From: a virus
IMG/VR virus record: IMGVR_UViG_3300009034_000045
Span: 1 to 57,030 of that record
Direction: 5' to 3' (one strand)
Length of the DNA: 57,030 bases
Positions 310 to 43,823 of the stretch are shown here, in pieces; position 1 is the first letter of the stretch; each line of letters starts with the position of its first letter. A model generated the notes under the pieces. That model was not told the DNA's origin. It searched no databases and saw only the letters and a list, made by a program, of their open reading frames with translations. Both the position numbers and the translations under genes were made by a program.

Positions 310-345
310 CACCCCCGCGCCACCGATATCGGTGGCGCGGGGGTG
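310..345. repeat. Perfect 36-bp palindrome
   Basis: CACCCCCGCGCCACCGAT (310-327) is followed directly by its exact reverse complement (328-345) with no spacer. In RNA it would be an 18-bp, very GC-rich hairpin. There is no T run after it, so it is not a standard intrinsic terminator. It starts on the base after the stop of the small peptide gene. It could be a cruciform, a protein-binding site or a transcript-end stabiliser. Confidence 0.85.
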
Positions 346-369
346 GACAGCGGACAGTGAATTGGTGTA

Positions 370-391: not shown

Positions 392-1057
392 GTGAGTACC
401 ATATTCAGTTTCAAGGACACTTGCTCCGGCCCCGTCTTTGTCCTTGGCAACGGCCCGAGCCTCGACGAGATAAAAGACTTCAGCGCGCTTCCCTACCCCA
501 CTTTCGGCGTGAACCGGAGCTGGCGAAGGACCCGCTCTAGGTGGCATTTTGTCGCGAGATGCGACCGCTATTTCAGGGACATGGCCCTCCACGGATGGAT
601 AGCAGATCATATCTTCACACCTGGACCGATTGAGAACTGTCATAGAAAGCTCCTGCGCTTCGGTTCGCGCTCCACCATCTCCGACGTGATGCGACACTTT
701 GTCCTGGTGCCGTGCGACGATAGGACGGCACGCAAGCATGGTGTCGAATGGGGCGAGTTTCCCTTCGTCGGATTTAGCATGTCTGGGGCCATGGCGATGA
801 AAACGGCGAGATACATGGGCTTCGACACGCTCTATCTTCTCGGCTTCGACGGTGGTAATGCCGGCCACTTCGGGGGCGACGATCCCCCCGCCACGGGCAT
901 CGATCATGACAGGGAATATTTCCGTGAGATGAAGTGGCGGTATCCTGATCTGAAGGTGTACAATTGCAGCATGGGCTCCGGCATCGCGACATGGCCGAAG
1001 AAGCCAATAGGAGAAGTTATCAATGAAGCGTCTGAAAATTATCCTAAAAAAGATTGA
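392..1057 (+). CDS. DUF115/MptE-like Rossmann-type protein
   Basis: This 221-residue protein starts at GTG 392. It begins with VFVLGNGPSLDEI (about residues 15-27) followed by FGVNRSW. The GNGPSL loop plus a following asparagine strand is the signature of the DUF115 (6-hydroxymethylpterin pyrophosphokinase MptE-like / MAF_flag10) group, which includes nucleotide-sugar-related enzymes. Later pieces such as LYLLGFDGG fit the same fold. The virion or modification role is not known. It opens the head operon, and its last 35 bases overlap the next small gene. Family assignment is moderately sure and function is inferred only. Confidence 0.65.
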   Translation: MSTIFSFKDTCSGPVFVLGNGPSLDEIKDFSALPYPTFGVNRSWRRTRSRWHFVARCDRYFRDMALHGWIADHIFTPGPIENCHRKLLRFGSRSTISDVMRHFVLVPCDDRTARKHGVEWGEFPFVGFSMSGAMAMKTARYMGFDTLYLLGFDGGNAGHFGGDDPPATGIDHDREYFREMKWRYPDLKVYNCSMGSGIATWPKKPIGEVINEASENYPKKD

Positions 1058-6946: not shown

Positions 6947-9085
6947 ATGGCCACTGAAGTCCAGAGCCTGATCTTTCCGAAGGGCAAGTGGAGCTCCGAG
7001 GCAGCCGTCAAGAAGTGGGCGAAGGACCACGACTTCCACTCCGGGAAGGTCGACGAGACCGAGCAGTCCTGGCGCCTCCGCCAGCGCGAGCCGGGAGACT
7101 TCGTGCGCATGCGCACCATCTGCCTGAGTCCCGGAAGGGACACGGAGATGGATGATTGCAAAGTCAAGGCTGTGGTCGGCCCGATCAAGGCTTCAGAGGA
7201 GAGAAGCATGGCAGAGAGGAAGACGGAGGACGGGGAGCAGTTTCCGGCCGCCGCCTATGCCTACGTCCCGGATGCCGAGCACCCCTCGACGTGGAAGCTT
7301 CGCCTCTGGGAGTCGGTCGCAAAGAAGGAGACGGCGCCCCAGGTCGGCAGGGCGATCGCCGCGCTGGGGAAGGGCTTTCGAGGAAAGAAAGTCCAGATCC
7401 CGTCCGAGGATCTTTCCAAGGTCAAGGCGAAGGTGCGGGCGGCCTGGAGGAAGACACATCCCGACGCCGAGAGCGGCGACATGCCTGCCGTGATCAAGGC
7501 AAGCGAGGTGAAGATGAAGGGAAGAGTTTTGCGCACGAAGGATTTCCTCGGGAAGCTCCGCGAGCTTCTCGCAGGCAAGATCAAGGACGACGAGCTGAAG
7601 GACGTTATCAGTAAGGCGCGCTCCCACGCCTCGGCGCAGTCGCGCGCGCGCAACAAGGCCGACAAGGACAAAGAGGACGGGGAGAAGAAGCCGGAGAAGA
7701 AGGCCGCCTACGAGGATTACAGCCCGAAGCTCGAGAAGACGCACGAATCCGTGGACTACAAGCAGGCTGAGAAGGTCGGGAAGACCTGCGGCGACTGCAA
7801 GTTCTTCTACCGCTTCTCATCATACGACGGTACCTGCCAGCTTGTGGAGGGGAGCATCAACGACATCAGCGTCTGTGGCCTCTGGGAGGCGATCATCACC
7901 GTGGTTTCCACAGAGTTGGCGACCGACTGGAGACTGTTTAACGAGCTCTCTGCCGAGTTCCAGTTCGCCGAGCCGCCCGACTGGATCCCTTTTCTGCCGC
8001 GGCCCGGCAAGTATGAGAGCCCGAAGTATGGCGAGGTACTCATTTCCCGCGAGAGGAACGAGAACTTTGTCTCCAACTTCGGCAACGCGGTCTATCAGGA
8101 GAAGATCGCCATAGACGCGGAGCACGAGTCGAAGCTCTCCGGTGCGTTCGGCTGGATAACAGAAATGCGCGCGAACGAGGATGGAAGCGTGGATGCGTAT
8201 GTAGAGTGGACAGAGTTGGGGGTGACGGCGATCAAGGAGGATAGATTCCGCTATTTTTCCCCCGAGTTCTACGACACCTGGCAGAATCCGATGACAGGGG
8301 AGACGCACAGGGACGTGGCGGTAGGAGGAGCGCTGACCACCCGCCCCTTTTTCAAGGAAGGGGCGCTCCGTCCCATCATTGCCTCGGAGAAGGGATTGAC
8401 CATCCTCGAGGAGAGAGGCAAGGATACTTATTTTCTGATACCATTGACAGGAGGTGAAGAGGAAATGGAAGACAAAGACAAGAAGGACGAGTTGACCCTG
8501 CGTGCGAAGCTCATCGAGTTCCTGGGGTTGGGCAAGAAGGATGACGTGGATGTCAAGGTCGACGATGTCAAGGTCGACGATGACACCAAGATCGATGACA
8601 CCAAGATCGATGACGTCAAGGTTGCTGCTTCCGAGGCGTTGTCCGAGGTCAAGCAGCTTCGTGAGGAGCTGAAGGAGAACAAGAAGACGATAGCCTTGCT
8701 TACCGAGAGCAACCTAAAGCTCGAGCAGGAGAATCGCAGGAAGCGGTTCGTCGAGATCGTCGGTGACGGCGAGGAGGATCTGAAGTTCATGGAGTCGATC
8801 GCCGCCAAGTTCGGCGAGGACAGCGACGAGATGAACCACTACGTCAAGCAGCACCGCGCGCACGAGGAGCAGGTGAGGCTTGCCGGGCTCTTCAGCGAGA
8901 ATGGGAGCACCGAGATTTCGCAGGGCGGAGGATCGGCGGAGGCCGAGTTTCACGCCTTGGCGAAAAAGTTTGTCGAGGAGAGCGAAGGCAAGCTGGACTA
9001 CAATGACGCCTATGAGAAGGCGATGAAGGAGAATCCTCAACTTTACGAAAGGTACACCGAAGAGTCTACTCTAAGGGTAGGATGA
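6947..9085 (+). CDS. Mu I-like prohead protease/scaffold with extra N-terminal domains
   Basis: The protein has 712 residues in several parts. An N-terminal region with WKLRLWE and basic stretches comes first. A small cysteine domain CGDCKFF...GTCQLVEG...VCGLWE follows (about 281-313), resembling the high-potential iron-sulfur-like module seen in phage proteins. The Mu GpI-type protease block is IDAEHESKLSGAFGWI...VEWTELG...RYFSPEFY (about 389-439). An acidic DVKVD repeat and a long coiled-coil C-terminus, typical of a scaffold, complete it. The protease would cleave the scaffold during head maturation. The 712-residue length is nearly double that of Mu I. Position before the decoration and capsid genes agrees. 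Confidence 0.82.
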   Translation: MATEVQSLIFPKGKWSSEAAVKKWAKDHDFHSGKVDETEQSWRLRQREPGDFVRMRTICLSPGRDTEMDDCKVKAVVGPIKASEERSMAERKTEDGEQFPAAAYAYVPDAEHPSTWKLRLWESVAKKETAPQVGRAIAALGKGFRGKKVQIPSEDLSKVKAKVRAAWRKTHPDAESGDMPAVIKASEVKMKGRVLRTKDFLGKLRELLAGKIKDDELKDVISKARSHASAQSRARNKADKDKEDGEKKPEKKAAYEDYSPKLEKTHESVDYKQAEKVGKTCGDCKFFYRFSSYDGTCQLVEGSINDISVCGLWEAIITVVSTELATDWRLFNELSAEFQFAEPPDWIPFLPRPGKYESPKYGEVLISRERNENFVSNFGNAVYQEKIAIDAEHESKLSGAFGWITEMRANEDGSVDAYVEWTELGVTAIKEDRFRYFSPEFYDTWQNPMTGETHRDVAVGGALTTRPFFKEGALRPIIASEKGLTILEERGKDTYFLIPLTGGEEEMEDKDKKDELTLRAKLIEFLGLGKKDDVDVKVDDVKVDDDTKIDDTKIDDVKVAASEALSEVKQLREELKENKKTIALLTESNLKLEQENRRKRFVEIVGDGEEDLKFMESIAAKFGEDSDEMNHYVKQHRAHEEQVRLAGLFSENGSTEISQGGGSAEAEFHALAKKFVEESEGKLDYNDAYEKAMKENPQLYERYTEESTLRVG
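8549..8623 (+). repeat. Five tandem 15-bp units in the protease gene
   Basis: The five units of 15 bp are two identical GATGTCAAGGTCGAC, two identical GATGACACCAAGATC and one GATGACGTCAAGGTT. They encode DVKVD/DDTKI-type acidic pentapeptides linking the protease and scaffold parts. The number of units may vary by slippage. Confidence 0.85.
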
Positions 9086-9136: not shown

Positions 9137-10093
9137 ATGAAGGGAACAATTGCGAGAAAACAGGCCGGCTTCGAAATGACCTGGCCGGCAGCTGCCGATC
9201 TGAGCGACTACCAGTATCGTTTCATGAAGGCCGACTCGAACGGTAGGGTCAACATAATCGCTGCAGTGGACGACATCGTGGTCGGTGTCCTGGACAACGA
9301 TCCGGCGGCGCTGGATCGCGGCGCGCGAATCATCCATAGTGGCGTCTGCAAGCTGGTCACTGACGGATCGTCCACGGCAATCACCCGCGGCAACTGGCTG
9401 GCATCCAACGCCACCGGCAAGGGGGTGAAGAGCAAGAGCAACATGGCTGTCGCCATGGCGCTCAATCCTTCCTCGGCTGACGGGACGATCATCTCGGCTC
9501 TCCTGATGCTGCATCCTATGCGTGTTCAGGACGACCATCTCGAGCTCATGGCTGATCAGGAAGCCAAGAAGCAGGTGCGTATTGGCTCGAAGGTTGCTAC
9601 GATAACCTCCGATACGCATATGGGGTTCAGCTCCAAGCCGGATCTCGAGGGCGACGGCTCGGCCACCGTGACGGGATGCGAGATTTCACCGAGGATCAGC
9701 AACGGCGGCTCCGGCGCCAACCTGTACGGCATCGACGTGAATCTAGACATCAAGTCGGATGCGAGCTCGGCGGTACTCAGTAGCAATATGGTAGCGTTGA
9801 AGTGCAAGTTGGAATGTGCTTCTGCGCTGGTTACGACCATCACTGGAGAAGCATGCTGCCTGCGCTGCGAGCCGGCTCTCAGCGGCAATCAGACGGTCAC
9901 CGGCAAGTACGTGCCGATCAGTATCAGGGATGCCACGCAGCAAGGCGTTGGAAAGAACTGGGATGGCGCGCTCATGATCGGTGGAGACGGTTCCATCGCC
10001 GATACTTCGAGCACGCCGAGCACGCAGGCAGGAATGATCAAGGTGCTCATCGGCACCACCGTGAGATATATCCGCCTCTACAGCGGTGCATAG
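9137..10093 (+). CDS. Capsid decoration/head-fibre protein (DUF2190-like start)
   Basis: The protein has 318 residues. Residues 1-110 (DLSDYQYRFMKAD..., VGVLDNDPA, ARIIHSGVCKLV, ITRGNWLASNATGKG) resemble capsid cement proteins of the DUF2190/gpD-like group, in which a small beta domain sits on capsomers. The remaining ~200 residues are Ser/Gly/Thr-rich beta sequence with four cysteines and end TTVRYIRLYSGA, as in head-fibre or decorated versions. It lies between protease and capsid genes. Decoration is likely; the C-terminal part is unassigned. Confidence 0.7.
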   Translation: MKGTIARKQAGFEMTWPAAADLSDYQYRFMKADSNGRVNIIAAVDDIVVGVLDNDPAALDRGARIIHSGVCKLVTDGSSTAITRGNWLASNATGKGVKSKSNMAVAMALNPSSADGTIISALLMLHPMRVQDDHLELMADQEAKKQVRIGSKVATITSDTHMGFSSKPDLEGDGSATVTGCEISPRISNGGSGANLYGIDVNLDIKSDASSAVLSSNMVALKCKLECASALVTTITGEACCLRCEPALSGNQTVTGKYVPISIRDATQQGVGKNWDGALMIGGDGSIADTSSTPSTQAGMIKVLIGTTVRYIRLYSGA

Positions 10094-28113: not shown

Positions 28114-28143
28114 ATTATACATGTCAGCTATGCTTTAAATCAA
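28114..28143 (-). promoter_or_regulatory. Leftward promoter
   Basis: On the minus strand, TTGATT (28143-28138), 18 bases, TATAAT (28119-28114). The -10 is perfect. It would start RNA near 28107, almost at ATG 28104. The sequence between the boxes contains GCTGACATG, related to GCTGTCATG in the rightward promoter. Confidence 0.6.
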
Positions 28144-28146
28144 ATA

Positions 28147-28251
28147 CTGTAAATCATTGAAAATAAAGGACTTATAAAGCCTGCAAACCATTGAAAATAA
28201 AGGACAAACTTTTTTTCTCGCTTTCTGTAAGTCATTGAAAACAAAGGGTTT
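28147..28251. repeat. Three direct repeats between the divergent promoters
   Basis: CTGTAAATCATTGAAAATAAAGG (from 28147), CTGCAAACCATTGAAAATAAAGG (from 28181) and CTGTAAGTCATTGAAAACAAAGG (from 28225) share a core of CATTGAAAAYAAAGG, with starts 34 and 44 bases apart. They are probably binding sites for a control protein, or iterons. Longest shared run between the first two: CATTGAAAATAAAGGAC. Confidence 0.8.
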
Positions 28252-28278
28252 AATATTTAAAAAACACTAAAATAATGC

Positions 28279-28307
28279 TTGACATATACTTGGCTGTCAT
28301 GTATTAT
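28279..28307 (+). promoter_or_regulatory. Rightward early promoter
   Basis: TTGACA (28279-28284), 17 bases, TATTAT (28302-28307); this is close to consensus and the best promoter in the window. TGACA and TGTCA within the spacer form an inverted repeat that may be an operator. It would drive the cassette array from 28.77 kb. Confidence 0.8.
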
Positions 28308-28313
28308 GAAAAG

Positions 28314-28686
28314 CAGTCAGTCAGTGGTAAATGTCCTTGCGGACTCAAGGATCGCTGCGGATTCAAGCCTCGCGCTTGGCCTAGAGAATCGCGGCTCGCT
28401 GCAAACGGCGTGAAGCCAAAGCTGACGGCCAGGGGAAAGACACTGAACGGTAACTGAGGTTACTTTTCTCTGGATTGAGCTCTAGCGATTTCATAACAAT
28501 CGCCGCGATGAGCGCCTTCCGAATACGGTTCAAGAGCATAGCCAAGAGTAGCTCCGCTGAGGCAAGGCAAAACTTTAAGTCCAAAGCCTACCGATATCGG
28601 AGAATCCGAAGAAAAGAGTTCGAAAGTGTATAAAACATTATTCCTTCCTCCTCCTTTTGCCGGGTGGGCGGCAGCAAGATCGCCTG
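28314..28686 (+). other. Long early leader without a supported gene
   Basis: About 370 bases follow the promoter. A frame from 28275 starts inside the promoter, so it is not supported. Small hairpins are visible (GTAAC/GTTAC at 28450-28463 followed by TTTT; GCGATT...AATCGC near 28484; palindrome CCGATATCGG). It may be an antitermination or regulatory leader; no known RNA family is recognised. Confidence 0.4.
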
Positions 28687-28770
28687 TCCAGCCAAGCCAT
28701 CGGATAGCAACCACTATTCGATGGCTTGGCTGGATCCAATCCGGGATCCTGGAAAAAGGAGGACGGGAAG
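28687..28770 (+). promoter_or_regulatory. Two-hairpin/SD element A
   Basis: First stem: 21 bp (28687-28707 with 28714-28734, one G-U), loop CAACCA. Second stem GGATCC/GGATCC overlaps its edge around AATCCG. Then AAAAAGGAGGACGGGAAG and ATG 28771. It is the first member of the nine-copy element set. Confidence 0.8.
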
Positions 28771-28962
28771 ATGACGAAGAAAGAAGCAGAAAAGTGGTTG
28801 GAATCCTTGCCATCGAAACATGTCCAGGCAAAGCAATGCCTGACGCAGCTCGAGCAGCTCCACCGCGCCGGTCACATGGATGACCGGGCATACCGGCTCG
28901 AGCAGAGACGCGTGGCAGTCGTATTCGCACTTGCGAGGAAACTGGCCGGCGAGATGGGTTGA
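28771..28962 (+). CDS. Cassette gene 1, 63 aa unknown
   Basis: Start fixed by the conserved GGAGGACGGGAAG. Helical, basic at the end (RAYRLEQRRVAVVFALARKL). The TGA stop is part of the next element (GGTTGAGCGCC). No family is recognised. Confidence 0.7.
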   Translation: MTKKEAEKWLESLPSKHVQAKQCLTQLEQLHRAGHMDDRAYRLEQRRVAVVFALARKLAGEMG

Positions 28963-29047
28963 GCGCCAAGCGGCAAGCGGACGGTAATAGTATCGTCTGC
29001 TTTCCAGTTGGTTCAATCCTGAGCTAACTAAAAAGGAGGACGGGAAG
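28959..29047 (+). promoter_or_regulatory. Two-hairpin/SD element B
   Basis: TTGAGCGCCAAG, then stem AAGCGGACGGTA/TATCGTCTGCTT (12 bp, loop ATAG). The second stem is AGTTGGTT/AGCTAACT around CAATCCTG, then AAAAAGGAGGACGGGAAG. TTGA contains the stop of cassette gene 1. Confidence 0.85.
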
Positions 29048-29245
29048 ATGATAACAAACAAGGAAATCAGGGAATATCTCGGCCACAATGGCCGTGAATG
29101 CAAAGTCGTGATCCGCCGAAACGGCTCCGTTGAAAGATACGGTAGCCCCAACGAGACAGACCGCTCCAAAGACTTCTGGACGTACATCGGTGAGATAGGT
29201 GACATCAGACGGCGGATTGAAAAGGGAGAAGGATTCACGATTTGA
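29048..29245 (+). CDS. Cassette gene 2, 65 aa unknown
   Basis: Start fixed by the element SD. The protein is basic and charged with CKVVIRRNGSVERYGS and FWTYIGEIGDIRRRIE, suggesting a small beta-alpha domain. No family is recognised. Confidence 0.7.
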   Translation: MITNKEIREYLGHNGRECKVVIRRNGSVERYGSPNETDRSKDFWTYIGEIGDIRRRIEKGEGFTI

Positions 29246-29248
29246 GAA

Positions 29249-29332
29249 TTGAGCGCCAAGCAGAGGTACTCGACAATTGCCGAGTACCTGCTAGTTGGTT
29301 CAATTCGGGACCAAAAAAAGGAGGACGGAAAA
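29249..29332 (+). promoter_or_regulatory. Two-hairpin/SD element C
   Basis: TTGAGCGCCAAGCAG, stem AGGTACTCG/CGAGTACCT around ACAATTGC, second stem TTGGTT/GACCAA around CAATTCGG, then AAAGGAGGACGGAAAA. The stem sequence differs from A and B but pairing is kept. Confidence 0.85.
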
Positions 29333-29578
29333 ATGAGAATCAAGAGTAGCGATAGGATGTCCAACAGCGGCTTCCATCGATCCGGCGGGAAAGGATCCGG
29401 AAGAGGATCCGGGGCGGCTTATTGGTGGCTCCGTGGTCCCGACGGATTTGTGGAGCTCCCCGAACGTGTGCGAGGCGACGACTATCTGGAGATTGAGATC
29501 GAGTTGTCACCGGGTGAATATGTCCTGGGTGTCGGCCGCGGGAAAGACGCGATTCGAGAAAACATCAAAGTAGGTTGA
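29333..29578 (+). CDS. Cassette gene 3, 81 aa unknown
   Basis: Start fixed by the element SD. A Gly/Ser-rich basic N-terminus (GFHRSGGKGSGRGSGAAYWW) is followed by an acidic beta-like half ending GVGRGKDAIRENIKVG. No family is recognised. Confidence 0.7.
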   Translation: MRIKSSDRMSNSGFHRSGGKGSGRGSGAAYWWLRGPDGFVELPERVRGDDYLEIEIELSPGEYVLGVGRGKDAIRENIKVG

Positions 29579-29661
29579 GCGCCAAGCGGCAAGCGGACGG
29601 TAATAGTATCGTCTGCTTTCCAGTTGGTTCAATTCAGAATCGATAAAAGGAGGACGGGAAG
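29575..29661 (+). promoter_or_regulatory. Two-hairpin/SD element D
   Basis: First hairpin identical in sequence to element B, but the second stem differs (GTTGGTT/AATCGAT with G-U pairs) before AAAAGGAGGACGGGAAG. TTGA contains the upstream stop. Confidence 0.85.
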
Positions 29662-29862
29662 ATGACGAGAACGGAGAAGCTTCAGCTCGCGATGAGCAAG
29701 ATGAACGACGCCTACAAGCTGGTTTCCGACGCCATGGACCTCGCGCAGACGGAGGACTGCAAGGTGGAGCAGGTCGAGAGCGATCTGTGGAACGTGGCAT
29801 CCGAGATCGAGCACGACATGCAAATGGAAGAGGAAAGAGAAAGGGACGAGCACTGGAATTGA
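29662..29862 (+). CDS. Cassette gene 4, 66 aa helical protein
   Basis: Start fixed by the element SD. Helical and acidic (KLQLAMSKMNDAYKLVSDAM; CKVEQVESDLWNVASEIEHD). No family is recognised. Confidence 0.7.
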   Translation: MTRTEKLQLAMSKMNDAYKLVSDAMDLAQTEDCKVEQVESDLWNVASEIEHDMQMEEERERDEHWN

Positions 29863-29944
29863 GCACCAAGCGGAGGGCAGGCGGCAAGGTCGCCTATCCT
29901 CCAGTTGGTTCAATCCGGAGTCGACTGAAAAGGAGGACGGGAAG
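29859..29944 (+). promoter_or_regulatory. Two-hairpin/SD element E
   Basis: Stem GGAGGGCAGGCG/CGCCTATCCTCC (one mismatch) with loop GCAAGGT; second stem CAGTTGGTT/AGTCGACTG (9 bp). Then AAAAGGAGGACGGGAAG. Upstream stop TGA is inside TTGA. Confidence 0.85.
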
Positions 29945-30232
29945 ATGAAAGGGAAAAGAAAATCATATCCATCCACCAAGCGATACACAATCACCCATGT
30001 CATCCATTTGGAAAGCGGGCGTCAGATAGTCCGCCATATGGCAAAGGAGTGGAAGACAATGCGAGGTGTTCTCAACGCTGCCGAACGGCTTGCTGTATGG
30101 ATCGGTGAGCGACACGATGACGAAGGAGTTATCCACAACTCCTTCGTCATAACGGATGAGATGGGACAGTTCAAGACAGTTCGCTGTTCGGCGATATCTG
30201 AGTTGCCGAACTGCCGTCACCCGATGGGTTGA
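29945..30232 (+). CDS. Cassette gene 5, 95 aa unknown
   Basis: Start fixed by the element SD. Mixed alpha-beta (TITHVIHLESGRQIVRHMAK; SFVITDEMGQFKTVRC). No family is recognised. Confidence 0.7.
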   Translation: MKGKRKSYPSTKRYTITHVIHLESGRQIVRHMAKEWKTMRGVLNAAERLAVWIGERHDDEGVIHNSFVITDEMGQFKTVRCSAISELPNCRHPMG

Positions 30233-30313
30233 GCGCCAAGTGGAGGTACTCGGCAATTGTCGAGTGCCTGCCAGTTGGTTCAATCCGGAGCCGACAAAAA
30301 GGAGGACGGGAAG
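30229..30313 (+). promoter_or_regulatory. Two-hairpin/SD element F
   Basis: Stem GGTACTCG/CGAGTGCC around GCAATTGT; second stem GTTGGTT/AGCCGAC around CAATCCGG; then AAAAAGGAGGACGGGAAG. Compared with C, the changed T-G pairing keeps the stem. Confidence 0.85.
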
Positions 30314-30607
30314 ATGAAAGGGAAGCATTACCATGTCTACGTCAACGACGGCGCCGGGAAGATCCTGGAGCCGTACAAGCCCTTCATATCTTTCAACAAG
30401 GCGGGAAGCCAGGTGAGCGAGGACTTCGGCGCGCCGCTGGAGGACCAGGTGACAAAATTCCGCTTCCGCGACGAGACCTTCGTGGAGTACGAGCCGGAGA
30501 CGGTCCGCATCTCCGGATGCGAGGGGGAGTGCGCCACCGACGACTTCTACAACAAACGGATGAAGTTCGAGAAGAGGACGGGATCGCGGAGAAACATCTA
30601 CGTCTGA
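30314..30607 (+). CDS. Cassette gene 6, 97 aa unknown
   Basis: Start fixed by the element SD. Beta-rich with two close cysteines (ISGCEGECATDDF, about 72-84). No family is recognised. Confidence 0.7.
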   Translation: MKGKHYHVYVNDGAGKILEPYKPFISFNKAGSQVSEDFGAPLEDQVTKFRFRDETFVEYEPETVRISGCEGECATDDFYNKRMKFEKRTGSRRNIYV

Positions 30608-30610
30608 GGA

Positions 30611-30701
30611 TTGAGCGCCAAGTGGAGGGCAGGCGGCGGTAGCGTCGCCTATCTTCCAGTTGGTTCAGTTCCGAGCCAGCTCAAAAAAGGAGGACGGGAA
30701 G
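30611..30701 (+). promoter_or_regulatory. Two-hairpin/SD element G
   Basis: Stem GGAGGGCAGGCG/CGCCTATCTTCC with loop GCGGTAGCGT; second stem GTTGGTT/AGCCAGC around CAGTTCCG; then AAAAAAGGAGGACGGGAAG ahead of the AAA+ gene. Confidence 0.85.
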
Positions 30702-32246
30702 ATGGAAAGAAAGCTGATAGAGACAATCAAGGCGGCGCGACGTGTCTCCACGCCGCTTCTCTGCGTGACTACGGCAGACCAGCAGGCAGTGGTGGCAAGC
30801 ATCTGCGAGTCGATCAACGGCGCGAAAGGGGATATAGGGGATATAGATACCTCGCCGCCGAAGATATCGTGGGACGCCGTGCGCGGTTTCGTCGCTCGCA
30901 ACGCGACAGGCAACGGGGCGCTCCAACAGTTCGATCAGGGCCAGGACATCGCCACGATATCGTCAAACCCGATGGAGGCCATCGCGATGGCGGCCGAGCT
31001 GCCGGCGAAGACTATCCTCCTCTGGCACAACGCGCACCGCTTCATAGGCGACGCCGTCGTAGCACAGGGGATAGCCAACCTCCGCGACGAGTACAAGCAG
31101 GACCGGCGCACGCTGATCCTGCTCGCGCCGTCGCTCCGGTTGCCCGCGGAGCTCGCGGCCGACGTCGTCGTGCTCGACGACCCGTTGCCGGATGACACGG
31201 AGCTGTCTTCCGTCCTCGGCTCGGTGTACGAGGCGGCGGGTGTCGAGGTTGCTTATGCCACCTCGAATCCTGAGATCGTCGACTCGGCGACGGCGGCCGC
31301 CCGTGGGCTCTCCGCCTTCGAGGCGGAGCAGGTCTTCGCCATGAGCCTCACCAAGGACGGGATCGATCTGGACGAGGCGTGGGAGCGGAAGATCGCGGCA
31401 GTCAACAAGACGAAGGGCGTCGAGATGGTCCGCGGCGGCAGGGAGACATTCGACACGCTCGGCGGCCTCGAGCAGGCAAAGAAGTTCATCCTGCAGAGAA
31501 TCGCCGGCCCAAACCCGCCAGCGGCCGTCGTGTTCATCGATGAAATCGAGAAGTCGATGGCGGCGGTGGGAACGGATACCACCGGCGTGAGCCAGGACTT
31601 TCACGGTGCGTTCCTCAAGTGGATGGAGGACAACGAGCTCGACGGAATGATCCTCGTGGGGCCGCCAGGTAGCGGAAAGACAGCCTTCGCCCGTGCCGTC
31701 GGCAACTCGGCTGGAGTACCGACAATCACCTGGGACCTGGGTGCGATGAAGGGCTCGCTCGTCGGCGAGAGCGAGTCCGCGATCCGGGAGGCGCAGAAGA
31801 TCTCCTCGAGCGTGGGCGGCGGGCGGATCCTCGTCATCGCGACATGCAACAAGCTCGACGTCCTGCCTCCGGAGCTCCGGAGAAGGTTCACGTCGGGCAT
31901 CTGGTACTTCGATCTTCCGACGAAGGAGGAGAGAAAAGGGATCTGGCAAATCCACGCGGAACGCTACAACATCAAAGGAGATCCTTTCAGACTGATGCCC
32001 GATGAAACGGACTGGACGGGGGCGGAGATCCGGAACTGCTGCAAGATCGCGTGGCAGCTGGAAACGTCCCTGAAGGAGGCCGCCGATTACATCGTGCCGG
32101 TAGCGAAGGCGAACCCGGACAGCATCAAGAGGCTCCGCGACGCGGCGACGGGACGATGGCTCTCGGCGAGCTATCCGGGACCGTTCAGGCAGCAATTCAG
32201 CACGGGGACGGCGAGATCCATCTCGGTGGATCCCGGCATGAACTGA
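30702..32246 (+). CDS. Ycf46-like AAA+ ATPase with Walker B before Walker A
   Basis: The protein has 514 residues. The N-terminal ~230 form the inactive domain typical of Ycf46-like proteins (RRVSTPLLCVTTADQQ, LLWHNAHRFIGDA, TLILLAPSLRLPAEL). The order then is unusual: GGLEQAKKFI, Walker B FIDEIEK (about 277-283), and only later Walker A GPPGSGKT (about 320-327), DLGAMKGSLVGESESAIRE, sensor 1 VIATCNK (about 378-384) and arginine-rich ELRRRF. In Ycf46 the Walker A block comes first. All motifs are intact, so it is probably active. DUF1257-like and DUF2997-like genes follow. The substrate is unknown. Confidence 0.8.
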   Translation: MERKLIETIKAARRVSTPLLCVTTADQQAVVASICESINGAKGDIGDIDTSPPKISWDAVRGFVARNATGNGALQQFDQGQDIATISSNPMEAIAMAAELPAKTILLWHNAHRFIGDAVVAQGIANLRDEYKQDRRTLILLAPSLRLPAELAADVVVLDDPLPDDTELSSVLGSVYEAAGVEVAYATSNPEIVDSATAAARGLSAFEAEQVFAMSLTKDGIDLDEAWERKIAAVNKTKGVEMVRGGRETFDTLGGLEQAKKFILQRIAGPNPPAAVVFIDEIEKSMAAVGTDTTGVSQDFHGAFLKWMEDNELDGMILVGPPGSGKTAFARAVGNSAGVPTITWDLGAMKGSLVGESESAIREAQKISSSVGGGRILVIATCNKLDVLPPELRRRFTSGIWYFDLPTKEERKGIWQIHAERYNIKGDPFRLMPDETDWTGAEIRNCCKIAWQLETSLKEAADYIVPVAKANPDSIKRLRDAATGRWLSASYPGPFRQQFSTGTARSISVDPGMN

Positions 32247-32248
32247 AA

Positions 32249-32270
32249 TCCGACCGAAGGGGGGACGAAG
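32249..32270 (+). promoter_or_regulatory. Degenerate tail of a cassette element
   Basis: ATCCGACCGAAGGGGGGACG followed by AAG and ATG resembles the end of the two-hairpin elements (CCGAC...AAGGAGGACGGGAAG) but lacks both hairpins. Confidence 0.5.
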
Positions 32271-32450
32271 ATGAAGAGGTGCAAGTCGTGCGACGCCAAG
32301 TGCATCACAACGAGAAAGATGTATGGAGAGGAGCTCTGCTACTATTGCTATCTGAGCTTCAGCAGCTTTCTCATCAAGCATTGGAAAAGGACGCATCAAG
32401 CGGTCGACGGGAACTCGACGATAGAGCTTCCGCCGGAGGGTCCTGGATAG
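32271..32450 (+). CDS. Small four-cysteine protein, 59 aa
   Basis: It follows the degenerate element. CKSCDAKC (4-11) and CYYCYLSF (23-30) form a likely zinc or iron-sulfur site. It lies between the AAA+ and DUF1257-like genes, a place where a small cysteine protein could be a partner. It was read directly because it is short. Confidence 0.65.
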   Translation: MKRCKSCDAKCITTRKMYGEELCYYCYLSFSSFLIKHWKRTHQAVDGNSTIELPPEGPG

Positions 32451-32453
32451 GGG

Positions 32454-32541
32454 TTGAGCGCCAAGCGGCAGACTCGCGGCAAGCTCGCGAGTCTTCCAGT
32501 TGGTTCAATCCGGGGCCGACTGAAAAAAAGGAGGACGGAAT
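32454..32541 (+). promoter_or_regulatory. Two-hairpin/SD element H
   Basis: Stem AGACTCGCG/CGCGAGTCT with loop GCAAGCT; second stem CAGTTGGTT/GGCCGACTG (9 bp); then AAAAAAAGGAGGACGGAAT. It precedes the DUF1257-like gene. Confidence 0.85.
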
Positions 32542-32883
32542 ATGCCATGTTATCAGAGAAGGACCACCACGGTGGATCTTGAGATGGCAAACCTTGACTT
32601 GCTCACAGCAGCTCTCGAAAATGCCGGCTACAGCGTCAGGAGAGATGACAGAACTATCCAAGCTCATCAAGGCGCTATCCATCTTTCCTTCCGAGAAGAT
32701 GTTCGAAAAGGCGTAAGGCTCCACATAGTGACCGACTACCTCAGCGATGGTGTGGCAATCACCAACGACATCAAGCGCGCCTACGCCACCGAGGCGGTGA
32801 GGCACGCCTCGAAGCGCTTCGGCTGGAAGCTGACCGAGCAACCGGGTGGCAAGATGCAGGCAAGAAGGAAGGGGTGGCGATGA
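32542..32883 (+). CDS. DUF1257 (Ycf35)-like protein
   Basis: The protein has 113 residues. LLTAALENAGYSVRRDDR near the start, HIVTDYLSDGV, and DIKRAYATEAVRHASKRFGW then KMQARRKGW at the end match the layout of DUF1257/Ycf35 proteins (xxLxxALxxLGxxV..., IxxxYAxxxVxxxAxxxGFxV). DUF1257 genes are known neighbours of Ycf46-like AAA proteins, as here. Function is unknown. Confidence 0.65.
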   Translation: MPCYQRRTTTVDLEMANLDLLTAALENAGYSVRRDDRTIQAHQGAIHLSFREDVRKGVRLHIVTDYLSDGVAITNDIKRAYATEAVRHASKRFGWKLTEQPGGKMQARRKGWR

Positions 32884-33107
32884 GCTACAAGAAAGGCGAC
32901 GTTGCATATGTATCAGCGACAGGGAGGAACCCCATGGCCAACAAACAAACTTGGAACACAGTCTGGCAATGCCAAAAGTGTGGTGACGACACTCATGCCC
33001 TCTACAATGTCCAGGTCAGCATGTACCGCGACCTTGAAACCGGCGAGATCGTCCGCCGTGAAACCGGGGAGTGTTTCTACTGCCACAATGCTGATCAACA
33101 AACCTAG
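32880..33107 (+). CDS. Zinc-ribbon protein, 75 aa
   Basis: ATG 32880 overlaps the previous TGA. WQCQKCGDDTHALYN and ECFYCHN give two CxxC pairs (about 31-71). It is probably a zinc ribbon. Partner or regulator of the AAA+ set is possible. Confidence 0.65.
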   Translation: MSYKKGDVAYVSATGRNPMANKQTWNTVWQCQKCGDDTHALYNVQVSMYRDLETGEIVRRETGECFYCHNADQQT

Positions 33108-33142
33108 GCACGCTGGCTGGCTGCCGAAGAAGGAGAACGAAA

Positions 33143-33334
33143 GTGACTAAACGGTACCACGTCAAGTGTGACTGCGGGTACAGCTACAGCTGGTCTCGAA
33201 AACCCTACGCTCTCCGCACCTGTCGCGATGCAAAGCGGACCTGCATGTCAAGGATGCCGACGGGAAAGCAATCCCGATTACTCAAACTTGGCGCGTCAAA
33301 CTATAGAGGCAAGGAGAACGAAAATGAAGATTGA
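33143..33334 (+). CDS. Small cysteine-containing basic protein, 63 aa
   Basis: GTG 33143 follows GAAGGAG. YHVKCDCGYSYSWSRKPYALRTC suggests a zinc-type half ribbon, and the remainder is basic (RMPTGKQSRLLKLG). Unknown. Confidence 0.55.
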   Translation: MTKRYHVKCDCGYSYSWSRKPYALRTCRDAKRTCMSRMPTGKQSRLLKLGASNYRGKENENED

Positions 33335-33482
33335 GCTCGACAAGGAGGAAATCTCGTGGATCCTGCTGGGGCTCGACCAGCTCCTTATGCCTGCCAGAAA
33401 AAACGCTAAAAAAATTGCCCAACTAGAGAGACGCCTACATCAGGCAGAAAAAATGGAGCGACAAAATGAAGAAGAAGAATGA
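33324..33482 (+). CDS. Small coiled-coil protein, 52 aa
   Basis: ATG 33324 follows AAGGAGAACG. MKIELDKEEISWILLGLDQL then RLHQAEKMERQNEEEE is helical; it overlaps both neighbours. Unknown. Confidence 0.55.
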   Translation: MKIELDKEEISWILLGLDQLLMPARKNAKKIAQLERRLHQAEKMERQNEEEE

Positions 33483-33660
33483 ACTGGACTGGGCCGAGTG
33501 TGAGGCGCTGATCCGCGGAGTGGAGAAGCTAGAGGAGGCCAACTACCTCACCGAATCGCACAAGAGGAAGCTGACCAAGAAGCTGAGAAGAATCCAGAAG
33601 AGGTACATCGAGGCATACGCGAAGAAGATGGAGGAGAAGAAACGATGCAGGAAGACGTGA
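33466..33660 (+). CDS. Small basic helical protein, 64 aa
   Basis: WAECEALIRGVEKLEEANY then KRKLTKKLRRIQKRYIEAY and a basic end. Overlaps neighbours by 15-17 bases. Unknown. Confidence 0.55.
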   Translation: MKKKNELDWAECEALIRGVEKLEEANYLTESHKRKLTKKLRRIQKRYIEAYAKKMEEKKRCRKT

Positions 33661-33860
33661 TCGACTTCCAGATCCTATCTGATGGAACCATCAAGGTGGT
33701 GACCCCCGGCATCTCCGGGGTGAACCACCGCAACGCCGACGAGCTGCTCTCGCTGGTTGCGAGGCTCGCCGGCGGCGAGACGAAGATCGAAAAGCTCGCG
33801 AAGCGCGGGCATGCGCACCACCAGCATCGATCGCATGTGCACCAGGGTGGAAAACAATGA
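33645..33860 (+). CDS. DUF2997-like protein with histidine-rich tail
   Basis: ATG 33645 follows GGAGAAGAAACG. DFQILSDGTIKVVTPGISG, then NADELLSLVARLAGG (about 22-43), resembles DUF2997 (xxxIxxDGxVxxxxxGxxGxxCxxxxxxLE). The tail AKRGHAHHQHRSHVHQ has six histidines and may bind metal. DUF2997 genes occur beside DUF1257 genes. Low to moderate confidence. Confidence 0.5.
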   Translation: MQEDVIDFQILSDGTIKVVTPGISGVNHRNADELLSLVARLAGGETKIEKLAKRGHAHHQHRSHVHQGGKQ

Positions 33861-34048
33861 AGACTTACTTGATCGTCTATGAGCGCAAGTCGGGAGATTT
33901 CACTGAAGATTTTCTCGGAAAGCTTTCCGGAAAAGAGGCGCGAGAAAAAGTTGACAGAATATCCCACACAGGGCTTCTACCTGAGACGAAGATTACGTGG
34001 ACACCTAGAGTGGTGAAAGGAGTTCGCTTCTACATCGCGGTGTATTGA
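33857..34048 (+). CDS. Small protein, 63 aa
   Basis: ATGA overlap with the gene before. MKTYLIVYERKSGDFTEDF and WTPRVVKGVRFYIAVY suggest a small beta-alpha-beta domain. Its stop TGA lies in element I (TTGA). Confidence 0.6.
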   Translation: MKTYLIVYERKSGDFTEDFLGKLSGKEAREKVDRISHTGLLPETKITWTPRVVKGVRFYIAVY

Positions 34049-34131
34049 ATCCGCCAGGATGCGCCCGGCAATGTCGGGCGCATATTGGTCGGTTCAATTC
34101 CGGGCCAACCGAAAAAAAGGAGGACGGAAAA
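34045..34131 (+). promoter_or_regulatory. Two-hairpin/SD element I
   Basis: Perfect stem ATGCGCCCG/CGGGCGCAT with loop GCAATGT, second stem TCGGTT/AACCGA, then AAAAAAAGGAGGACGGAAAA. It is the last copy, and its stem sequence is unlike all others. Confidence 0.85.
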
Positions 34132-35082
34132 ATGAAGAAAGATAGATTCGACTACACATCCACGAGCAAGGGGCTCATTGAGGACACCGTCTGCCTCCAG
34201 CTCTCCTTCAGGAAGCCAGGCGACAAGATCAAGGCAGACAAGAACGCCATTGAGGTCAACTCGGATAAGGATATGCTTCACCTCAGCAAGACCATCCTGG
34301 AGAGCAAGGAGCTGAATAAGATCAGGGGACACCGGATCGCGGCCAGGACGCACGTCAGGAGCCTCGCGATCCCCTCACCCATGTTCAAATCCGGCGTCCA
34401 CTGCATCCCTGTCGCGCTGATCGAGGACGTCAACACCAAGCTGGAAGAGGCGAAAAAGAAGGATAACGAGCTGATTGAAAAGTTCATGGATGCGTACGAC
34501 TGGAACCAGACGAGGCCCGACGGGCTGATCTCGCAGGCAAAGAAGAAGCTGAAAGCGCTGTTCGACGAGGCGGACTATCCCTCGCCGGGAAGAATGAAAC
34601 GCGCCTTCAATTTCGAGTGGAACTTCTTCTCCTTCCAGACACCGGAGAATCTCAGTGCCGTTTCCTCGTCGCTCTTCAAGAAAGAGAAGGAGAAGATGAG
34701 GCTCAAGTGGCAGGAGGCACAGGAAGAGGTGGTCGTGCTCCTCCGCGCCGAATTCAAGTCTCTGGTTGACCACATCACGGAGAGACTGACACCGGAAGAC
34801 AGGACCAACGGAAAGAAGAAGTTCTTTAAGGGCGCCACGGTGACAAGTGTGTCGGATTTCCTCGGGACGTTCCCATTCCGGAATGTCTGCGACGACAAGG
34901 AGCTCGACACGCTGATCCAGCGGACGAGAAAGCTGCTCGACGGTGTGGACATCAAGGAGCTCCAGAAGAGCGAGGCGCTGAAGGCCAACATGAACGCGGG
35001 CTTCGCGGTGGTGAAGAAGCGGCTCGATGTCCTGGTCAAGGACAAGCCGGCGCGGCTGATCAGCCTGGAGGGGGAGGAATAA
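34132..35082 (+). CDS. Conserved-looking protein of the AAA+ set, 316 aa
   Basis: FNFEWNFFSFQTPENL, VDHITERLTPEDRTNGKKKF, LGTFPFRNVCDDKELDTLIQ and LLDGVDIKELQ are patterns I associate with proteins encoded beside Ycf46-like AAA genes in phages; the N-terminal half (RSLAIPSPMFKSGVHCIPV) is weakly DUF3150-like. Its last 42 bases are repeated 229 bp downstream. No enzyme motif is seen. Confidence 0.55.
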   Translation: MKKDRFDYTSTSKGLIEDTVCLQLSFRKPGDKIKADKNAIEVNSDKDMLHLSKTILESKELNKIRGHRIAARTHVRSLAIPSPMFKSGVHCIPVALIEDVNTKLEEAKKKDNELIEKFMDAYDWNQTRPDGLISQAKKKLKALFDEADYPSPGRMKRAFNFEWNFFSFQTPENLSAVSSSLFKKEKEKMRLKWQEAQEEVVVLLRAEFKSLVDHITERLTPEDRTNGKKKFFKGATVTSVSDFLGTFPFRNVCDDKELDTLIQRTRKLLDGVDIKELQKSEALKANMNAGFAVVKKRLDVLVKDKPARLISLEGEE

Positions 35083-35312
35083 GATGCTGTCCCGATTCTT
35101 CGTCACCGACACCGACCTGATTCATCTTCAGATGAGCTTCGATGGAGGGCAGAACTGGATCAATATAACCACGTTCTGCTCTCCCGGTGTAGCGGGGGCC
35201 GTGCCGTACTTGACAGCTGCCGTAGACATCAACAAACTGAAAAGCAAGGATCTGAAGATGAAAAGCCGAGACAAGCCGGCGCGGCTCATCAGCCTGGAAA
35301 GGGAGGAGTAAA
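35041..35312 (+). repeat. 42-bp direct repeat flanking a virion-gene fragment
   Basis: GACAAGCCGGCGCGGCT starts both copies (35041 and 35270). Over 42 bp they differ at four positions. The 190 bases between them include a stretch similar to the virion paralogs at 5-6 kb. Confidence 0.85.
35084..35311 (+). CDS. Chimeric 75-aa protein with virion-paralog piece
   Basis: HLQMSFDGGQNWINITTFCS then PGVAG aligns with virion paralog 3 (YLQTSFDEGTNWTDVAAFRF then PGVAG). The end KPARLISLEREE duplicates the end of the preceding gene (KPARLISLEGEE). It looks like a recombination product. ATG 35084 is right after the previous stop, with SD GGGGAGGAAT. Expression is possible; function unknown. Confidence 0.6.
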   Translation: MLSRFFVTDTDLIHLQMSFDGGQNWINITTFCSPGVAGAVPYLTAAVDINKLKSKDLKMKSRDKPARLISLEREE

Positions 35313-35552
35313 ATGACAACCGACGAACTGGCGATGGAATGCAAGAGGAAAGAAATCGCCTGTCTGAAAGAAGCCAAAGGAAAGTGTACAATAACCGTCC
35401 ACGGTCACAGTGAAGATCATCGACGGTGGTACTTCGATGGTAAGGCGAGCGCCTATGCCGACATCTGGGAGCTGGCAACATACGGCCGGCGCCTGCCTCC
35501 GGATGAATACAATGAAGCCAACGAATACTGGAGCAAGAGGGTCGAAGAGTAA
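35313..35552 (+). CDS. Small protein before the early terminator, 79 aa
   Basis: SD GGGAGG (duplicated repeat) precedes ATG. CKRKEIACLKEAKGKC then HSEDHRRWYFDG, charged. No family is recognised. Confidence 0.6.
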   Translation: MTTDELAMECKRKEIACLKEAKGKCTITVHGHSEDHRRWYFDGKASAYADIWELATYGRRLPPDEYNEANEYWSKRVEE

Positions 35553-37779: not shown

Positions 37780-37987
37780 ACTCTGCGACGAAGACGGGAC
37801 CGACTCTTGCCAGGATTGCGGCCGGATGATCTGCTACGATGCCAAGCCGTCGAATATTGATGTCATCGATCAAGCCTATGTAACCGAGTCGGGCGATCTA
37901 TTCTGTCATCATTGCGGCTCAGCTCACGATAGGCGAGAGAAAGAAGAGATGGAGAATGATTCCGATTATATAAGGGAAATACCATGA
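37772..37987 (+). CDS. Zinc-binding protein, 71 aa
   Basis: CELCDEDGTDSCQDCGRMIC (2-21) and CHHCGSAHD make a probable two-site zinc domain. Bases 37865-37949 are repeated at 38046-38130. ATG overlaps the previous gene by 8 bases. Confidence 0.65.
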   Translation: MCELCDEDGTDSCQDCGRMICYDAKPSNIDVIDQAYVTESGDLFCHHCGSAHDRREKEEMENDSDYIREIP

Positions 37988-38064
37988 TCTACCTCGGCGT
38001 CGACCCCGGGAAAACCGGCGCGCGCGCCGTTCTTTTTCAAGCAACATCGATCGGGCCTACGTAA
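37984..38064 (+). pseudogene. Truncated RuvC-like resolvase start
   Basis: ATGA overlap start encodes MIYLGVDPGKTGARAVLFQ, the N-terminal strand of RuvC-type nucleases (first catalytic Asp in GVDPG). After 19 residues it runs into a duplicated piece of the previous gene in another frame and stops. Probably a remnant. Confidence 0.7.
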
Positions 38065-38135
38065 CAGAGTCGGGCGATCTCTTCTGTCATCGTTGCGGCC
38101 TGGCTCACGACAGGCGAGAGAAAAAAGAGGTTTAG
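38040..38135 (+). pseudogene. Duplicated end of the zinc-binding gene
   Basis: Reads SNIDRAYVTESGDLFCHRCG then LAHDRREKKEV, about 87% identical in DNA to 37865-37949. It has no start. Together with the RuvC remnant it marks a recombination junction. Confidence 0.75.
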
Positions 38136-38146
38136 GAGGAGAAACA

Positions 38147-43519: not shown

Positions 43520-43823
43520 TGGCTGGGCCGGTTCGATTCCGGCCAGCGCGGGGAGCCCGCGCTGTCTGTAGCCTCTCGAGGAAAGCTTCGGGCAGCGCGG
43601 GCAGCTTTCTTGCGCGACTGGACGAGATAATGAATTGGATCCAAAGAGACAAGAGAAAGCGCAGGCTCGGCAATCCCGCCGAGCATCGCCCGGTGGTCGT
43701 CCGGGCCGGGCAACCTTTCCGTGGGGGCCGGCGCACCGTCCTCCTTGCGTGCGCTAGTCCCGCTTCCCAAGGAAGCGCCGGTCCCCGTAGGAAGAAAAAC
43801 ATAAATAAGGACAAGGAAATGAG
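43471..43823 (+). ncRNA. Structured, GC-rich RNA region (candidate non-coding RNA)
   Basis: It contains CGGCAGCCGCGAGAAGCCCG (from 43471); CCCGCGTT (43487-43494) can pair with AGCGCGGG (43545-43552). Further stems: GGCCGG/CCGGCC (43526-43544, loop TTCGATT), AGCGCGGG/CCCGCGCT (43545-43563), GAAAGCT/AGCTTTC (43581-43609), GCTCGGC/GCCGAGC (43665-43684), GCCCGG/CCGGGC (43688-43706), and GGGGGCCGGCGC/GCGCCGGTCCCC (43723-43786). The last can swap with GCGCAC/GTGCGC plus CGCTTCC/GGAAGCG. No convincing gene lies here. No known RNA class is recognised. Confidence 0.55.

Follow-up and report, generated by a model that had tools for sequence, protein, structure and literature searches.

Nine intercistronic elements with two competing hairpins precede early genes in a 57-kb viral record

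Nine copies among the early genes

The window, i.e., the whole stretch of DNA analysed here, is the IMG/VR record IMGVR_UViG_3300009034_000045 (57,030 nt). The sequence-only reading had claimed the same element ahead of nine genes, and all nine copies, named E1-E9, were found before the named start codons (Table 1), confirming that the elements are real. All of them precede early genes, and the structural half has none. Each is bounded by a stop codon on its upstream side and a strong SD on its downstream side, except for E1, which has no adjacent upstream gene. The order of parts is stop codon, arm A, free-sequence stem, arm A', arm B, SD and start codon. The gene behind E9 (34132) gave a weak DUF3150 match, and the AAA ATPase gene behind E7 was used as the marker for finding related phages.

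The string AAAGGAGGACGGRAADATG occurs eight times, compared with 0.09 expected by chance, and the ninth copy, E8 (before 32542), ends with ACGGAATATG. The SD tail ACGG shows no variation across the nine copies. The other strings reported as common to all copies, TTGAGCGCCAAG and GTTGGTTCAATCCGG, are kept closely in E2-E8 only, with one change in TTGAGCGCCAAG in E5 and variable final bases of GTTGGTTCAATCCGG; their counterparts differ in E9 (TTGAATCCGCCAG and GGTCGGTTCAATTCC) and in E1 (CCAGCCAAG and CTTGGCTGGATCC). A covariance model, as had been proposed, was trained on E2-E9; it recovered the held-out E1 (44.6 bits, E=5e-8), and elsewhere in the 57-kb record it detected no additional copy of full length. 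In the 57,030-nt window, none of 4227 Rfam families matched at the gathering score, and ARAGORN gave no match.

Table 1. Coordinates of the nine elements and of the ATPase gene used as a marker
Feature	Span	Strand	Hairpin 1	Hairpin 2	SD + ATG	Upstream stop	Remarks
E1	28686..28773	+	28686-28735, perfect, 22 bp	28732-28749, GGATCC/GGATCC	28755-28773		before 63-aa gene 28771-28962; layout kept, sequence divergent
E2	28959..29050	+	28959-29016	29007-29028	29032-29050	TGA 28960-28962, within arm A	
E3	29249..29335	+	29249-29303	29294-29315	29317-29335	ends 29245	
E4	29575..29664	+	29575-29632	29623-29644	29646-29664	within arm A	hairpin 1 identical to E2
E5	29859..29947	+	29859-29913	29904-29925	29929-29947	within arm A	
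E6	30229..30316	+	30229-30283	30274-30295	30298-30316	within arm A	
E7	30611..30704	+	30611-30668	30659-30680	30686-30704	ends 30607	precedes AAA ATPase gene
E8	32454..32544	+	32454-32508	32499-32520	32527-32544	TAG, ends 32450	
E9	34045..34134	+	34045-34098	about 34087-34109	34116-34134	within arm A	arms changed on both sides; precedes DUF3150-like gene
AAA ATPase gene	30702..32246	+					514 aa; Pfam AAA E=1.7e-18; phrog_8638 E=1.9e-48

The shared arm, related layouts and selection on pairing

The two hairpins do not lie side by side: the complete hairpin 1 pairs TTGA..CCAA with TTGG.TTCAA, which is the 5' arm of hairpin 2. Arm A' pairs either with A, giving the 55-60 nt hairpin 1, or with B, giving a 22-nt hairpin 2 that adjoins the SD. 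Because the 5' arm of hairpin 2 is the 3' arm of hairpin 1, the full folds are mutually exclusive. Eight copies prefer the long fold by about 1-5 kcal, and E1 is biased by 24 kcal toward one fold. Competition of both hairpins for one arm had been overlooked in the earlier reading. Its observation on the stop codon needed refinement: the upstream stop lies within TTGA in E2, E4, E5, E6 and E9 and ends 4 nt before TTGA in E3, E7 and E8, i.e., it is inside or at most 4 nt from the first arm of hairpin 1 in eight of nine copies. By direct sequence reading, a frame from the arm A TTG is open in E2-E8, with spacers of 45 or 48 nt. A leader peptide from this TTG was rejected, because each copy has a different end or fusion of that frame. 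A tRNA T-arm reading of GGTTCAATCC fits only a few copies and was also rejected.

Protein searches with the ATPase alone and with the 34132 gene found no close relative of the virus. The ATPase gp103 of Tunturiibacter phage Tunturi_3 (PP885686) has 35.7% identity to the ATPase behind E7, and this phage carries elements of the same layout, with a stop at arm A, a variable inner stem, an A' common with a short hairpin, and an SD. Unlike E1-E9, the Tunturi_3 elements number four, are unrelated in sequence and precede different genes. Their stems are 21-24 bp; for copy T3, the assignment of the SD and start that follow it is uncertain. When both phages are considered, the last base of the stop falls at +3 or -4/-3 of arm A in all 12 elements having an adjacent upstream gene. 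With an ATPase profile, 80 viral loci and 80 genome loci were collected, in which the covariance model found nothing convincing (best E=0.065). Pattern scans of IMG/VR with the SD block, A..A' and the Tunturi core gave chance matches only. When the two-state layout was scanned for blindly, E2-E9 and two Tunturi_3 copies were recovered. At loci L177 and L180, a tRNA-like hairpin bearing a T-arm is followed by a covarying hairpin and then an SD, a layout that is possibly parallel.

The hairpin 1 stem is 20-24 bp in all nine copies, its arms measure 22-29 nt there and in the four Tunturi_3 elements, and its inner sequence is freely variable. In this hairpin 94.6% of cells are paired, a value reached by none of 500 shuffles. 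Two-sided changes among these paralogous copies within one genome affect 10 of 23 pairs and 22 cells, compared with shuffle means of 5.6 and 7.5 (0/500). The excess of compensating changes over chance, without which the sequence-only reading was to be given up, is present. Its statement that pairing is kept by changes on both sides stands, but in addition to the match of E2 and E4, the inner stems of E3/E6 and E5/E7 resemble each other (82-83%). In hairpin 2, 95.8% of cells are paired, versus 15-57% with slid partners. Four of its eight pairs are changed on both sides, every one of them from E1, in which arms A, A' and B are all altered and both alternative pairings are retained. Hairpin 2 beats most linker-shuffled versions in 13 of 13 elements of the two phages (p 0.002-0.076), and the folding z is -3.2 to -8.8 in every copy of E1-E9. 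The stems hold 53 G·U pairs versus 6 A·C mismatches, counted from minimum-energy folds that are somewhat biased toward G·U, and the sense strand is stabler than the antisense strand in 11 of 12 informative copies with the two phages pooled. Judged by sequence and statistics, base pairing in both helices is selected at the RNA level, in the mRNA sense.

Comparison with known systems

The SAS/ESAS repeats were described in Cluster K mycobacteriophages by Pope et al. 2011 (PMC3203893), and similar motifs are found in Microbacterium clusters EF and EG (PMC7302621). E1-E9 resemble them in being multi-copy, start-associated and restricted to the non-structural half, with an inverted repeat and an over-conserved SD; all nine lie immediately upstream of non-structural gene starts. 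However, the 13-bp SAS GGGATAGGAGCCC at up to 3 mismatches gave 18 matches compared with 19.6 expected, none of them at element SDs. According to Pope et al., departures in the ESAS arms do not support RNA pairing, and the authors favoured DNA binding (PMC3203893). Our recomputation of the TM4 sites found no sense-strand bias and conserved arms without covariation. In contrast, E1-E9 keep pairing by two-sided change, with one arm common to two folds. Membership was therefore rejected, as GGGATAGGAGCCC is not above chance and the two-sided changes contradict the ESAS arm pattern.

In T4-type phages, PeSL cassettes (Arbiol 2010 and Comeau 2014, as cited in PMC4503421) consist of an early promoter and a terminator stem-loop. 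E1-E9 resemble them as stem-loop units that recur between small early genes and have a link to shuffling, and differ in having no U-run and in holding the SD inside the unit. Scans for sigma-70 and intrinsic-terminator consensus sequences on the + strand found nothing at the elements, with phage-specific promoters falling outside the consensus. PeSL membership was rejected on the lack of any such promoter-like or terminator-like match.

The intercistronic RNase III sites of T7 early mRNA are imperfect hairpins of roughly two turns, placed between early genes that share a transcript. Intercistronic hairpins of about two turns are likewise found in the nine copies here and the four of Tunturi_3, where cleavage is putative. 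The T7 sites are not known to carry a competing second hairpin or an embedded stop codon.

In ermC-type translational attenuators, alternative helices have a common arm (PMC5118997). The elements are similar in that A:A' and A':B exclude each other, each is supported, and a ribosome could decide which forms. They differ in that a full gene rather than a leader peptide stands upstream and nine copies occur in one genome, and in that the calculated SD sequestration does not change between states. With arm A blocked, computed SD accessibility rose in some copies and fell in others, and calculations showed no greater SD opening than in shuffled elements. An SD-occluding switch was rejected because accessibility shows no consistent change between folds, and an SD insulator was unsupported when compared with shuffled elements. 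Since predicted SD accessibility does not differ consistently between the folds, a simple ermC-type switch is unsupported.

A putative processed leader, its alternatives and their meaning

We tentatively suggest, at somewhat less than even confidence, that the element is an intercistronic RNA leader of an early polycistronic message, cut by an RNase III-type enzyme and leaving hairpin 2 as a 5' cap. Hairpin 1 (20-24 bp, about two helical turns) would be the substrate for this double-strand-specific RNase, which would cut when the upstream gene has no terminating ribosome. Cleavage would part A from A', A' would then snap onto B, and the downstream message would carry hairpin 2 as a protective hairpin right before the SD. 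A ribosome on the upstream stop would likewise hide arm A, and the A':B fold would then form with no cut, which could make the module a sensor of upstream translation as well. The uniform stem of free sequence fits a processing site of this type, and the placement of all copies between early genes and nowhere else in the record also speaks for it, as do the RNA-level pairing, the phasing of the stop to arm A, the similar stem length in Tunturi_3 and the possible parallel in L177 and L180. Several points count against it. The covariation comes wholly from paralogous copies within a single genome. The invariance of ACGG goes further than an RNase site would require and is a hint of recognition by sequence. 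The position of the stop codon might reflect nothing more than genome compaction, the SD calculations do not establish an effect on translation, and ATPase-bearing relatives as a group show no enrichment of the two-state layout (76 hits vs 72.5 in shuffles). Of the earlier suggestion of a regulated or processed translation module, an RNA-level, sense-strand element with two-sided pairing changes is upheld, and simple SD occlusion is argued against. The elements suggest a device that the phage reuses to cut a long transcript into its individual messages or to time them.

A switch without cutting is rather unlikely. A terminating ribosome would cover arm A, A':B would form, and the state of the leader would set initiation at the next gene, i.e., translational coupling through RNA rearrangement in the manner of an ermC-type attenuator. 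The exclusive helices with a gap of about 1-5 kcal in eight copies are in the switchable range, the stop is phased to arm A in both phages, and unfolding of RNA by an upstream ribosome is an established form of coupling, as in rpmI-rplT with its +52 nt spacing (PMC12548453). However, blocking arm A shifts SD accessibility in no consistent direction, the stop-to-start distance of 84-95 nt is far longer than in typical coupled pairs, and E1 combines its 24-kcal bias with the lack of an adjacent upstream gene. We regard as improbable an operator RNA, in which a phage or host protein or an antisense RNA would bind A', the loop or the SD and repress or activate the nine early genes jointly. The unvarying AAAGGAGGACGG amid varying inner stems points that way, as do two noncoding + strand complements of the SD, one at 28642-28658 beside E1 (15 bp plus a 5-bp clamp) and one with an 11-nt match at 43736, but a complement of at least 11 nt arises in 13 of 200 shuffled genomes, and both the free inner stem and the recurrence of the layout in Tunturi_3, where the sequence is unrelated, argue for structure and against sequence recognition.

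A DNA-level element, either a PeSL-like recombination cassette or a repeat bound as dsDNA as proposed for ESAS, is already disfavoured and has little chance of being correct. Small unrelated genes flanked by conserved blocks would suit it, and E2 and E4, which lie between unrelated genes, have an identical hairpin 1 and hairpin-2 3' arms that are only 42% identical, which indicates that parts of the element were copied among sites. This trace of copying is what remains of the recombination module for swapping small genes proposed earlier, since a DNA site leaves selection on RNA pairing unexplained. Pair-preserving changes with a G·U bias on one strand and the high percentage of pairing are unexpected for DNA sites, and no promoter-like or terminator-like match lies at the elements on the + strand. 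It is hardly credible that the copies share no function and are recent duplicates of intergenic segments with structure by chance. Their confinement to one genome, with close relatives not found, would agree with this, but the inner stems are almost wholly different while pairing and length persist, a divergent held-out copy was recovered, and Tunturi_3 has the same layout; because of the compensating changes, chance structure is already refuted.

Beyond this virus, the processed-leader reading might extend to an undescribed general punctuation of phage early operons, consisting of a bistable unit with the stop in the switch arm, a nuclease-substrate first structure and a 5'-cap second structure; we consider this possible but doubtful. 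If it is true, different phages would have reached the same layout with unrelated sequences, the nuclease substrate being the two-turn hairpin in E1-E9 and Tunturi_3 and the tRNA-like hairpin in L177 and L180. Several actinobacteriophage clusters have been reported to carry start-associated repeats, and RNA folding was judged unlikely for the best studied; the phage described here is a case with well-supported RNA folding. The layout predicts the cut position, the arm protected during upstream translation and the 5' end that would remain. One unit precedes nine unrelated genes, and its layout occurs in a cultured acidobacterial phage, so that an isolate is available for testing.

Element anatomy and its two exclusive folds

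The IMG/VR viral record is 57,031 bases long, of which the window covers nearly all. It represents a tailed phage: the genes for head and tail occupy the first half, and those for replication, together with the early genes, the second. Searches for relatives of the window found no close phage record or viral contig. Nine starts between 28,686 and 34,134 are each preceded by a copy of the element (E1–E9, numbered 5' to 3'); the sequence-only reading had named these nine sites correctly, and the set is well above chance.

From 5' to 3', the element opens with arm A (TTGAGCGCCAAG in seven copies, with a single change in one of the seven), followed by an inner stem of 10–12 bp whose sequence most copies do not share, and by arm A' (GTTGGTTCAA). 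A six-base AATCCG-like loop then leads to arm B (GAGCCGAC-like), after which come a few A residues, the SD block AAAGGAGGACGGGAAG and the ATG. Pairing of A with A' closes hairpin 1 (55–60 nt), and A' with B makes hairpin 2. Because the same bases serve both, complete hairpin 1 and hairpin 2 are mutually exclusive. The two hairpins had been taken as neighbours, with the inner stem and hairpin 2 being seen, but the full hairpin 1 uses the bases of hairpin 2. Folding calculations gave the inner stem plus hairpin 2 when arm A was barred and the long hairpin when arm B was barred; the calculated preference for the long form is about 1–5 kcal/mol in E2–E9 and 24 kcal/mol in E1.

Evidence for pairing in RNA

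In the E2–E9 alignment, 94.6% of the hairpin 1 cells are paired and 10 of the 23 pairs show both-sided changes. The hairpin 1 covariation score is 0.444 versus 0.236 in shuffles (0/500), and at most 46% is paired when the arms are slid out of register. For hairpin 2, 95.8% of cells are paired across the nine copies, and four pairs carry both-sided changes, every one owed to E1, in which arms A, A' and B are all altered, yet both folds are still possible. The covariation of both hairpins is between copies in one genome and not between species. Hairpin 2 was seldom equalled after shuffling of the arm-B linker (p 0.002–0.076 in each of 13 elements). The stems of the window and of the Tunturiibacter phage Tunturi_3 (PP885686) together contain 53 G·U pairs versus 6 A·C mismatches, counted on minimum-energy folds and hence tilted somewhat toward G·U. 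A sense/antisense comparison, which is free of this bias, found the sense strand more stable in 11 of 12 informative copies from both phages. The earlier interpretation is right on the RNA level.

Tunturi_3 and other ATPase carriers

Among isolated phages, a single protein matches the window ATPase (30702–32246) over its full length, Tunturi_3 gp103 (35.7% identical). Read by eye, the Tunturi_3 early region has elements with the window layout but a different sequence: the inner stem, again variable, is closed by arms CTAATGGTG.GAGT and GACTCTGCTATTA, of which the 3' one also makes CTGCTATTAGCAG, and AAGGAG then follows in most copies. The four copies have folding z values of -4.8 to -6.4, and the upstream stop (TAA or TAG) lies inside arm A in three of them and 3 nt before it in one; one copy, T3, has a weak SD and start downstream. 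The paper that describes the Tunturi phages, searched for repeats, hairpins or stem-loops, does not mention them.

A comparison set of 80 viral loci carrying the ATPase was scanned blind for the two-state layout, which recovered E2–E9 and two Tunturi copies. Across the whole set the layout showed no excess over shuffles, and it is therefore not universal among ATPase carriers. Several relatives have their own repeated start-associated hairpins. In two of these loci, L177 and L180, the first structure is a tRNA-like hairpin whose T arm is canonical (GGTTCGACTCC) and whose 7-bp closing stem differs between copies; it was not called as a tRNA by ARAGORN. The second hairpin covaries between the loci (GCTCCGG/CCGGAGC against GCCCTGG/CCGGGGC). 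These junctions look like a tRNA-like version of the window's punctuation.

Features in the window and in loci of ATPase-carrying relatives (L-numbers)
Location	Strand	Feature	Remarks
Window ~310–346		Perfect palindrome CACCCCCGCGCCACCGATATCGGTGGCGCGGGGGTG, near record start	16-bp stem, directly after stop at 309
Window 28142–28307		Three imperfect 30-nt direct repeats (AAATACTGTAAATCATTGAAAATAAAGGAC), then near-consensus promoter TTGACA-17-TATTAT at 28279	Likely an early promoter with regulator sites
Window 28642–28658		CTTCCTCCTCCTTTT, just upstream of E1	Complementary to shared SD block (10+5 bp, plus CCGGG/CCUGG clamp); pairing could lock E1's SD; also reads as minus-strand SD before 16-codon ORF
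Window 35041–35086, 35270–35315		46-nt direct repeat, 89%	Spans end of one gene, SD and next ATG: repeated gene junction of another kind
Window 37864–37959, 38045–38140		96-nt direct repeat, 83%	Codes for a stretch with Cys/His; may represent duplication of a small zinc-binding protein
Window 43520–43823		~300 nt ahead of primase-like gene, coding evidence slight	Canonical T-arm hairpin GCCGGTTCGATTCCGGC at ~43526; AAGGAGGACGG has an exact 11-nt complement at 43736 (one as long in 13/200 shuffled genomes)
L177 ~8930–9040, ~9280–9390; L180 ~70–180, ~420–530		Stop codon, tRNA-like hairpin, covarying second hairpin, SD, start	
L164 2573, 3233, 5008, 5673	+	Structured conserved motif GCCCCGCAA..CCGGGCGCCTCCACGTGGCGCGGGGTGG before starts	Four copies; no Rfam match
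L220 (six sites), L171, L246, L207	+	Further repeated hairpins near starts: GATTCTAGGGGTGGG, GCCCCAAACACAAACGTTTGGGGC, GAAATCTTCGATTTTCGGCGTAGATTT, GCGCGACACCAGCGC	Lineage-specific
L196 250–5800	-	Long array of ~63-nt repeats (AGGCCCGTGCAACCGTCGAGA...)	Probably a gene for a repetitive protein, with no relation to the elements

Known systems and proposed function

By position and copy number, the nearest described phenomenon is SAS/ESAS of Cluster K, whose defining 13-mer is absent from the window elements; according to its authors, departures in the SAS/ESAS arms do not support RNA pairing (PMC3203893), and our quick recomputation on TM4 agrees. PeSL is described as a promoter-terminator motif (PMC4503421), and neither a sigma-70 promoter nor an intrinsic terminator was detected by consensus on the + strand at the window elements. 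The ermC-type attenuators (PMC5118997) share the alternative-helix logic, but their SD switching is not seen here. No Rfam family matches the window elements.

An attenuator hiding the SD fails as an explanation, as the calculated SD accessibility shifts in no consistent direction when arm A is blocked, and an SD insulator fails in comparison with shuffled elements. The conserved features are a 20–24 bp stem with free inner sequence and a competing short hairpin, hairpin 2, which is possible only once A' loses A. A terminating ribosome may also impose the hairpin-2 state, as suggested by the placement of the upstream stop codon at arm A. Five copies (E2, E4, E5, E6, E9) have the end of the stop inside the arm, at +3; in three others (E3, E7, E8) the stop ends 4 nt short of the arm, and E1 has no adjacent upstream gene. 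Such ribosome control is the main rival of a processing role, or a second function beside it. A stem of this length with free sequence is the mark of a double-strand-specific enzyme, not of a sequence-reading protein. Read jointly, the two hairpins are most simply taken as a processing site (hairpin 1), at which we infer a cutting step, and as the 5' hairpin that would remain on the next message after the cut (hairpin 2). Such processing has a known parallel in the early mRNA of T7, which uses RNase III.
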